Under the pieces are notes generated by a model, which saw only the letters and a list, made by a program, of their open reading frames with translations, was not told where the DNA came from and searched no databases. This document shows, piece after piece, positions 15,115 through 28,415 of a stretch of DNA of 64,000 nt. Made by a program: the position numbers and the translations under genes. The stretch comes from Alkalicella caledoniensis (GTDB lineage Bacteria > Bacillota > Proteinivoracia > Proteinivoracales > Proteinivoracaceae), in assembly GCF_014467015.1 (NCBI RefSeq), contig NZ_CP058559.1, positions 1,798,001 to 1,862,000 on the forward strand, read 5' to 3'. How positions within the stretch are numbered: the first letter of the stretch is position 1; the number at the start of each line of letters is the position of its first letter.

Positions 15115-15915
15115 CTAATAAATAATGTCTACTTCACCTGTCAACTCGTTTACGCTCTTCAACTTTAAAAGTGAGAAATAATCATTAACCATTTTGTTTT
15201 CCGGGTTTTGGCTATCTATAACAACACCAATTCCTGCTAATGAGCAGCTAAATTCTTTTACTAGCTCAACAAGTCCTTTAGCTGCACCACCGGCTTTCAT
15301 AAAGTCATCTATTATCAAAATTCTTTTCCCAGGCTTAATTGCTTTTTTTGTAATAGACATGGTTTGGATTCTTCGTGTTGATCCTGTCACATAGTTTATT
15401 GTAACTACAGGTCCTTCTGTAACTTTTGCTTCTCTTCTAGCTACTACTACCTCTGCATTGAGATAGTTCGCTGTAGCCATAGCAATAGGTATCCCTTTTG
15501 TTTCCATAGTCAAGCAATAGTCTACCTTTTTTTCAGCATATTTTGATGCAAATATTAGCCCCAGCATATTAGTTATTTTTGGGTCAAATATTAAATCTGA
15601 ATAGTAGAGGTAGCCTCCAGGTAATACCCTTTCCTTTGCTTGTAGCTTTCCTTTTAAATCAGTTAAAAATTCCTGTGTTTTTTCAGTGGTTATTTTCGGT
15701 ATAAAGTATGCGCCACCTGTGGCGCCTGCATTACTTATTATTTCTCCTAAACCATTTTGTTTAAAAGTTGTATTCAAATGAAAAAGATCTTCGCTAACAC
15801 TTGATTTTGCAGCATCATATTTTTCACAAAAATAGTTAAGAGAAAATGTTTTATTAGCTGAAAACAAAAATTCCATAGCCATTAATGCGACCCTTTGACT
15901 TCTTTTAAATTTTAT
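15115..15915 (-). CDS. purR: Purine operon repressor PurR, probable non-AUG start
   Basis: A PurR of about 266 residues. The N-terminal winged helix (KFKRSQRVALMAMEFLF) is followed by a phosphoribosyltransferase-fold domain with the PRPP loop ILIIDDFMKAGGAAKGL near residues 190-206. It represses purine genes and is released by PRPP. The frame is open to a TTG at 15951, but that has no Shine-Dalgarno site. GGGGGAGG lies just before in-frame ATT (15918) and ATA (15915), and B. subtilis PurR begins MKFRRS, aligning with the ATA codon. I therefore place the start at ATA, with ATT as alternative. Confidence 0.9.
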   Translation of the reverse strand: MKFKRSQRVALMAMEFLFSANKTFSLNYFCEKYDAAKSSVSEDLFHLNTTFKQNGLGEIISNAGATGGAYFIPKITTEKTQEFLTDLKGKLQAKERVLPGGYLYYSDLIFDPKITNMLGLIFASKYAEKKVDYCLTMETKGIPIAMATANYLNAEVVVARREAKVTEGPVVTINYVTGSTRRIQTMSITKKAIKPGKRILIIDDFMKAGGAAKGLVELVKEFSCSLAGIGVVIDSQNPENKMVNDYFSLLKLKSVNELTGEVDIIY

Positions 15916-15952
15916 AATTTTGTCCTCCCCCTTATTTTTTCCATAATACAAT

Positions 15953-15987
15953 TTATTTAAGCAACCCAGAAGGTTGCTTAAATTAAG
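15953..15987 (-). terminator. Hairpin over the end of the nucleotidyltransferase gene
   Basis: TTTAAGCAACC / GGTTGCTTAAA perfect hairpin with a 5-base loop. It includes the stop codon of the nucleotidyltransferase gene and lies before purR. It lacks a clean T run, so it may attenuate and not end transcription. Confidence 0.55.
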
Positions 15988-24386: not shown

Positions 24387-24424
24387 AAAAATAAGGAGCC
24401 CGTTTATATGGCTCCTTATTTTTT
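24387..24424. terminator. Bidirectional terminator between ykuD-like and CAP genes
   Basis: AAAAATAAGGAGCC / GGCTCCTTATTTTT hairpin with a 9-base loop lies between two convergent genes and has T runs on both strands. Confidence 0.85.
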
Positions 24425-25316
24425 ATCTGCCCACAAACATTTGTGTGAACATTATTCCGTATGGTCCACCTTCTACAATCCCAATTCCTATGTGAGTAAA
24501 GGATGGGTTTAAGATGTTCGCCCTGTGACCTGGGGAGTTCATTAGATTAGTATGGGCTCTACTTACACTAGAAGCTCCAGCTAAGTTTTCTCCTGCAGTT
24601 CTGTAGGTAATACCAAAGCTCCTCATCATATCAAAAGGACTACCATAAACAGGTGAATTATGTGCAAAATAGTTGTTTTGAATCATATCTTGACTCTTCA
24701 ATCTTGCTACTCGTACTATATCTTGATCCATAGCAAGTGGTGATATTCCATTTCTTGCTCTTTCTTGGTTAATTAGACTTAGCATTTCTTGCTCCATCTG
24801 TTGTTGCCTAGTTGACGGTTGTGGCTGTGGTTGTGGCTGTGGTTGTGGTTGTGGCTGTGGTTGTGGTTGTGGTTGTGGCTGTGGCTGTGGCTGTGGTTGT
24901 GGCTGTGGCTGTGGCTGTGGTTGTGGTTGTGGTTGTGGTTTTTGTTCTTCCTCTACAGGAATAAGTACTCTTTGACCTGCAAAAATTATGTGTCCCCTTA
25001 TATTATTAGCTTCCATAATAGAACCTATTGTTAAACCAAATTCCCTTGCTAGTGTAAAAAGGGTATCCCCAGCTTTTACATTATAAGTCTTATACTTTTC
25101 TAGTTGGTGCTTACTTGTATTAAGAATTTCCCTCAACCTTTGGCTTGATACTTCACCACGTATAATGTCTTCAGATTGGATCCTAAAAACAACATTTTTG
25201 CTTGTACCTAACCTAATAACTTGGTCGGTATTTTGAAAAGATAGTGCATACCCACTTGTAGACATAATTACGAATAAGAAACACATTACTAAAGCTACTA
25301 CTTTAACTTTTCTGAT
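24423..25316 (-). CDS. Secreted LysM-(PQ)n-CAP (SCP/YkwD) protein, probable ATC start
   Basis: About 297 residues. With the proposed start the N-terminus is a good signal peptide (RKVKVVALVM...SGYALS). Order: LysM near 65-110, about twenty Pro-Gln repeats, then a CAP domain with HNSP, AGENLAG, SPGHRANILNP and HIGIGIV motifs, as in YkwD. The first ATG (25286) has no ribosome site and cuts off the charged n-region. AAGGGAGGG lies 6 bases before an in-frame ATC (25314-25316), which I take as the start. Likely wall- or spore-associated; CAP function in bacteria is poorly known. Confidence 0.85.
   Translation of the reverse strand: MRKVKVVALVMCFLFVIMSTSGYALSFQNTDQVIRLGTSKNVVFRIQSEDIIRGEVSSQRLREILNTSKHQLEKYKTYNVKAGDTLFTLAREFGLTIGSIMEANNIRGHIIFAGQRVLIPVEEEQKPQPQPQPQPQPQPQPQPQPQPQPQPQPQPQPQPQPQPQPQPSTRQQQMEQEMLSLINQERARNGISPLAMDQDIVRVARLKSQDMIQNNYFAHNSPVYGSPFDMMRSFGITYRTAGENLAGASSVSRAHTNLMNSPGHRANILNPSFTHIGIGIVEGGPYGIMFTQMFVGR
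24817..24936. repeat. 20-unit hexanucleotide tandem repeat
   Basis: Twenty consecutive copies of GGYTGT (plus strand), coding Pro-Gln repeats on the minus strand. Units differ only at the third base (C or T), so length change by slippage stays in frame. Confidence 0.95.
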
Positions 25317-28146: not shown

Positions 28147-28415
28147 GATACTGAAAAGCGAATTTTTTTGTCATCTTTGCTATAGAGCGTTAGTTCGACA
28201 GTTTCTGTTAGTATATCAGCATAAGAAAACGATAAGCGTCTATTGAAGTTCTCTTCGTTAATAAGAACTAAGAAATGGGATGGATAAATTTGCTCTAAAA
28301 TACCTGTTCGTTCCATCGCTTTTTTTCTGCCTCGGTTGGCTTTTAGAGAGATTTTTTTGCCAATGTAGCCCTCTAAATCGTTCTTAATAGCAGCCAAGGT
28401 GGTTTTTGTAGCCAA
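28143..28415 (-). CDS. veg: Veg protein
   Basis: A 90-residue Veg (DUF1021). It keeps the family core (GYIGKKISLKANRGRKKAMERTGIL and SYADILTETVEL). Veg is a small, highly expressed protein that influences biofilm formation in B. subtilis; its biochemical role is unclear. GAGGTG precedes a TTG at 28415 by 6 bases, giving MATKTT, like the Bacillus MAKTL start; the ATG at 28421 would overlap the ribosome site. Two consensus sigma-A promoters lie upstream. Confidence 0.93.
   Translation of the reverse strand: MATKTTLAAIKNDLEGYIGKKISLKANRGRKKAMERTGILEQIYPSHFLVLINEENFNRRLSFSYADILTETVELTLYSKDDKKIRFSVS

Follow-up and report, generated by a model that had tools for sequence, protein, structure and literature searches.

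Where does translation of purR begin in Alkalicella caledoniensis? In the stretch of 64,000 nucleotides analysed here (the window), the start region of the gene reads, on the minus strand, AATAA GGGGGAGG ACAAA ATT ATA AAA TTT AAA AGA AGT. A first-pass annotation had proposed that purR starts at ATA or ATT, noting that the only canonical in-frame codon nearby was a TTG lacking a ribosome site. Our analysis of the sequence supported a non-canonical start at the GGGGGAGG site as the best reading of purR.

The purR gene and its start region

The open reading frame at 15115..15918 (minus strand; 267 codons from ATT, plus the stop) matched the NCBIfam pur operon repressor profile TIGR01743 with 305.6 bits (cut-off 258.7) over profile positions 1-258 of 268. 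Pfam assigned it a PuR_N domain (PF09182, residues 16-85 in the TTG frame) and the Pribosyltran fold (PF00156). Judged by these profile matches, the product is a Firmicute PurR, with a DNA-binding N-terminal domain and a phosphoribosyltransferase-fold effector domain. The frame is intact, has 74% identity to its closest relatives (loci L005 and L006) over the alignment and is single-copy in the genome, in which the three other matches had E-values of 1e-11 or weaker and covered the C-terminal two thirds or less. A stem-loop is predicted ahead of purR at 15960..15978 (minus strand), directly after the stop of an NTP-transferase-like gene. Within the window, Rfam at gathering thresholds gave no match and ARAGORN found no tRNA.

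Downward from 15960, the minus strand reads TTAAATAAATTGTATTATGGAAAAAATAAGGGGGAGGACAAAATTATAAAATTTAAAAGAAGT, which comprises the purR leader and start. The Shine-Dalgarno sequence GGGGGAGG (15924..15931, minus strand) was predicted to pair with the 16S tail of the same genome (GGATCACCTCCTTTCT, read in two copies) at -11.4 kcal/mol before ATT/ATA. The 36 codons ahead of ATT contain no stop, an in-frame stop stands at codon -37, and TTG 15951 (15949..15951, minus strand) is the only ATG, GTG or TTG between that stop and codon 1. The next canonical in-frame codons, ATG 15882 and ATG 15876 (15874..15882, minus strand), lie inside purR. Predicted pairing was -3.6 kcal/mol before TTG 15951, which bears out the earlier remark on that codon, and -5.0 kcal/mol before each internal ATG. 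The locus shows both features of an AUN start: no usable ATG, GTG or TTG at the ribosome site, and a strong Shine-Dalgarno sequence at a working distance. On re-reading, the GGAGG core stood 5 nt before ATT (15916..15918) and 8 nt before ATA (15913..15915), exactly as first annotated. We also considered a hairpin burying the Shine-Dalgarno sequence and ATT as a structural control and rejected it: 41 of 200 shuffles folded equally well or better (z -0.80), and the corresponding region of L006 folds differently.

Comparison with other purR genes

For comparison, 61 genomes (60 relatives and the genome under study) were searched, 27 of which contained purR at E <= 1e-40, and a scan of named genomes contributed the best 80 of 590 confirmed matches, giving 107 purR loci, i.e., 106 relatives and the gene itself. 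A plasmid search for PurR relatives yielded 14 records with <60% identity, which were left out of the comparison. Among the 107 loci (27 plus the best 80 of 590), 106 had a canonical codon in columns -8 to 4, and the gene studied here was the sole locus without ATG, GTG or TTG there; a canonical start stood in column 1, the ATT column, in 69 loci and in column 2, the ATA column, in 28.

The two nearest relatives, L005 and L006, come from another genus of the same family (genomes G001 and G003). Their Shine-Dalgarno, spacer and start codon match the present block column for column: L005 has GGGAGGATAAA-ATG against GGGAGGACAAA-ATT here, and L006 is alike. From the core onwards, the relatives read GGGAGG ATAAA ATG TCA AAA TTT, compared with GGGAGG ACAAA ATT ATA AAA TTT. 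In both, column 1 is thus ATG and column 2 is TCA, and this ATG likewise lies 5 nt from GGAGG. Because ATT occupies the ATG column of the nearest relatives, we propose ATT rather than ATA as the start codon. The earlier annotation had leaned towards ATA, from the match with the MKFRRS of Bacillus subtilis PurR. That register was correct, in that the B. subtilis locus (L085) has its ATG in column 2, i.e., the ATA column. However, the nearest relatives have ATG in the ATT column, and the preference for ATA gave way to the alignment of close-relative N-termini.

The alternative that purR starts at ATA 15915, giving M-K-F-K-R-S with ATT as the last untranslated triplet, is unlikely, although several lines of evidence point to it. 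Among genes sampled from this genome, a strong Shine-Dalgarno sequence most often precedes a canonical start by 8 nt (148 of 433 pairs) and seldom by 5 nt (19 of 433); the other ATN candidates found here (the YkwD, M32, DUF4015 and AlaX genes described below) are all at 8 nt; column 2 holds the start in the 28 loci counted above; and reporters in Listeria rank ATG > ATA > ATT (PMC13068326). Against it stand the ATG and TCA of the closest relatives, as well as an alternative Shine-Dalgarno register, AAGGGGG, which places ATT at 8 nt with a predicted -9.6 kcal/mol compared with -10.9 kcal/mol for the GGAGG register. From the sequence, ATT would rank first and ATA second, and both codons may be used together. 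We consider it probable that this intact purR, whose closest relatives start with ATG, came to have ATT through a third-position change, leaving a weak start there and possibly also at ATA.

In the four other genomes of the family, purR starts with ATG, ATG, GTG and ATG. On this alignment the ATT is not conserved and is specific to its own lineage, and purR is therefore not filed as a conserved AUN-start gene. In a separate observation, the purR of G046 (L011) has CTG in column 1, 8 nt from GGAGG, and a TTG two codons upstream that is only 2 nt from the Shine-Dalgarno sequence; a CTG start is possible there.

ATN starts elsewhere in the genome and family

The infC gene of the same genome reads AGGAGGTGAAAAGTT ATT AGT AAT AAA. 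It has no canonical start at its ribosome site because a TGA stands in frame inside the Shine-Dalgarno sequence, and, as the sequence reads, it must start at ATT or the preceding GTT. A crude gene scan of 864 kb (the window and 40 further stretches) covered 653 genes, of which 11 had a strong Shine-Dalgarno sequence and no usable canonical codon. Five of the 11 had an ATN codon at 5-9 nt together with a fitting N-terminus, namely purR and the genes for a YkwD protein, an M32 carboxypeptidase, a DUF4015 lipoprotein and AlaX; the rest comprised one ambiguous ATA (L144) and five genes without ATN. The resulting frequency of ATN starts, about 0.8% of 653 genes, is an estimate and not a census.

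The second ATN-start gene in the window encodes a YkwD/CAP and LysM secreted protein (24423..25316, minus strand), with the Shine-Dalgarno sequence AAGGGAGGG at 25331-25323 and an ATC start at 25316. A TAA stop lies just before its ribosome site, and a canonical codon occurs only inside the signal peptide. Its orthologues in G003 and G001 (L219, L220) have ATT, and the best homologues in G002 and G004 have ATG. The DUF4015 lipoprotein gene (L152 16186-17394) starts at ATT in the genome under study (G000), and the corresponding column also holds ATT in G003 and G001 (L203, L204), making three genomes from two genera; in G004 and G002 it holds TTG (five matches, with the G008 start left out). 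For the M32 carboxypeptidase gene (L120), whose candidate start is ATA, a search of nine genomes gave no relative at E <= 1e-20, and this case stays a candidate. Two cases are ambiguous: AlaX (L156) has ATA and a GTG two codons earlier, and the Shine-Dalgarno sequence of the gene at L144 16031 (ATA or CTG) contains a GTG.

Two further genes were compared across the family. For yqeG (L208-L212), no canonical codon was found at the ribosome site in any of five family genomes from three genera: G004 and G002 have ATT there, G003 and G000 have ATA, and G001 offers either ATA or an ATT two codons later. The start column of rodZ (L213-L217) holds ATT in G004, ATC in G002 and TTG in both G003 and G001; G000 has ATA, or ATG two codons on. 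Additional candidates were noted in G001 (C3 58852-60357 and 195228-196091) and at L174 90-962. They comprise a candidate ATT in a gene that by eye looks rny-like and, in rsgA, a candidate ATC in G001 (by eye) and a candidate ATT directly after a stop in G004.

In the control genome G048, from another family, ccpN was found with ATA and matched NF053704 from residue 1 (L191 14421-15886). The published start of ccpN is AUA in Staphylococcus aureus and is conserved in B. subtilis (PMC13009471), so the scan recovered a type of AUN start that is already established. In the same stretch of G048, a ppsR-like gene adjoining ccpN has a candidate ATA start. An enrichment test of strong-Shine-Dalgarno genes without a usable canonical codon, with thresholds set after a first look, gave an ATT/ATC/ATA share of in-frame codons of 7/20 in the sample of this genome (expected 1.9, P 0.0018), 5/17 in G004 (P 0.014), 4/25 in G001 (P 0.21), 2/15 in G048 (P 0.40) and 3/14 in G026 (P 0.12). 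Because this signal is modest and candidates occur in both controls too, we do not claim that the host family is special; ATN starts are therefore probably a trait of Firmicutes more widely. The homology columns, and not the enrichment, carry the argument for ATN starts. In Listeria, 6 of 2265 conserved genes are reported to have fixed non-canonical starts (PMC13068326).

Purine operators and the remaining alternatives

We searched the genome for a PurBox-like pattern of paired CGAA/TTCG elements, with a relaxed version and with the reversed pattern as a control. The PurBoxes of B. subtilis are described as two 14-bp boxes with a central CGAA, separated by a spacer of 16-17 bp and located just upstream of -35 (PMC8789054). 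A pair at 2215362-2215395 of the genome, with AT-rich flanks, lies just ahead of the -35-like hexamer of a permease-like gene, which is followed by a run with purC and ORFs read by eye as purB, purQ, purL, purF, purM, purN, purH and purD. Another pair at 1952584-1952617, also with AT-rich flanks and just ahead of a -35-like hexamer, precedes an oxidoreductase-like gene and then an ORF read by eye as purA. As read, both pairs match the arrangement described for B. subtilis. The strict pattern CCGAA...TTCGG had no site anywhere in the genome, and the relaxed pattern had four, equal to the four of the reversed control; two of the four lie before purine genes, one resembles a terminator hairpin and one lies in the window at 28159-28197. 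Because the count is not above the control, the operator argument rests on the location of the pairs. With a single purR and PurBox-like pairs before two sets of purine genes, the repressor is probably used in the cell.

Upstream of purR itself, an ATTCG/GTTCG motif occurred within 75 nt of the match in 65 of the 80 named loci (the best 80 of 590) and in 13 of the 27 unnamed ones, and it was present near the purR ribosome site in L007 and L008. This motif may be an autoregulatory box. It was absent from the 75 nt upstream of purR in the window and in L005 and L006.

A sequencing or assembly error masking a true ATG, or a very recent loss of the start with PurR no longer made, appears improbable. 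ATT is one base from ATG and the rest of the purR frame is perfect, as either event would leave it. However, the genome is a single contig of 3.70 Mb, the operator-like pairs are in place, and ATN starts recur at the same columns of the DUF4015, YkwD and yqeG genes in other genomes of the family, so that such starts are not confined to this assembly.

The first codons of purR bear on the two other candidate start sites. In codons 3-12, eight of ten amino acids are identical in each of L005 and L006, and five (L005) and six (L006) codons are changed synonymously. Because the nucleotides change and the amino acids are kept, we conclude that these codons are translated. In codons -12 to -1, only 4 of 12 are identical, three of them at the Shine-Dalgarno and spacer end, and stops interrupt the stretch twice in L005 and once in L006. 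Initiation at TTG 15951, the sole canonical codon upstream, would add an extension of 11 residues (MYYGKNKGEDK) and is very improbable, since its predicted ribosome site is weak and the extension, which is not conserved and contains stops in L005 and L006 alike, is no conserved coding segment. We give still less credence to a truncated repressor made from ATG 15882 or 15876, both canonical codons, because the constraint on codons 3-12 places the start upstream of codon 3, the predicted ribosome sites are weak and the DNA-binding domain (PuR_N from residue 16 in the TTG frame) would be cut.

Proposed mechanism and significance

For the preferred start at ATT, possibly with ATA, we propose the following mechanism. 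GGGGGAGG would position the 30S subunit on the purR mRNA, and initiation with the initiator Met-tRNA would take place at ATT (15918), possibly also at the adjoining ATA (15915), giving the N-terminus M-I-K-F-K-R-S or M-K-F-K-R-S, respectively. The pairing of the initiator tRNA with AUU would carry one third-position mismatch, IF3 would disfavour the initiation complex, and the PurR yield would be a fraction of that from AUG, as with measured AUU and AUA starts. PurR would thereby be kept scarce, and its purine operons would be partly derepressed and easier to induce. Initiation at ATT/ATA, the lower yield, the IF3 sensitivity and any adaptive value are what we infer. In S. aureus grown in poor medium, AUN-start reporters reached about 10% of the AUG level, and AUN starts are described for ccpN (a repressor, AUA), cvfC1 (AUU) and infC (AUA) (PMC13009471).

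Several known systems resemble purR in part. Like purR, infC, which encodes IF3, has an AUN start (AUU, AUA or AUC) after a strong Shine-Dalgarno sequence, and the infC of this genome is such a case. However, infC is autoregulated through its own product, IF3 (PMC5472188), a loop that PurR could not close, and the AUN start of purR is lineage-specific. Another is ccpN, which encodes a metabolic repressor and likewise combines an AUN start with a strong Shine-Dalgarno sequence (PMC13009471); S. aureus and B. subtilis share its start, whereas purR has ATG or GTG in the four other genomes of the family. The purR Shine-Dalgarno sequence is predicted to pair no better than those of its ATG-started relatives (-11.4 compared with -11.7 and -10.3 kcal/mol). 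The Streptomyces regulator sigR is also kept at a low level by a non-canonical start, which is repressed by IF3 (PMC5472188), but its codon is GTC, the organism is another one, and IF3 control was tested for sigR and is predicted for purR. A one-base start difference in a negative regulator is likewise reported for rsbW of Listeria (ATG to ATA/ATT; PMC13068326) and lacI of Escherichia coli (GTG or ATG; PMC11445065). In these variants the regulator was lowered and its targets partly freed, with less LacI and higher basal lac expression from GTG, an outcome that for purR is a prediction. The rsbW variants are laboratory-selected mutants and that of lacI is a GTG, whereas purR has a standing ATT in the genome record. 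A non-canonical purR start was not found in the open-licence literature searched; the AUN-start mechanism is already known, and its probable use by purR would be a new case.

A broader reading, which we put forward tentatively and regard as doubtful, is that ATN codons form a standing, exchangeable class of weak starts in the host family (Clostridia), with ATG, TTG, ATT, ATA and ATC taking each other's place in a given column of yqeG, rodZ, the DUF4015 gene, the YkwD gene and purR. This class would amount to about 0.5-1% of genes, most of them missed by gene finders, and purR would have joined it in a single lineage, giving IF3-tuned purine repression.

Few genes besides infC have documented AUN starts, and gene finders work on the assumption of ATG, GTG or TTG. 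The present gene, for a global metabolic repressor, appears to use such a start, and several more occur in this genome and its relatives, some of them across genera. If confirmed, the annotated N-termini of AUN-start genes would likely be wrong (choosing TTG would give purR a false extension of 11 residues), and AUN starts would be more frequent in Firmicutes than currently estimated. Weakening of the start codon would then be a one-base route to a lower repressor dose.
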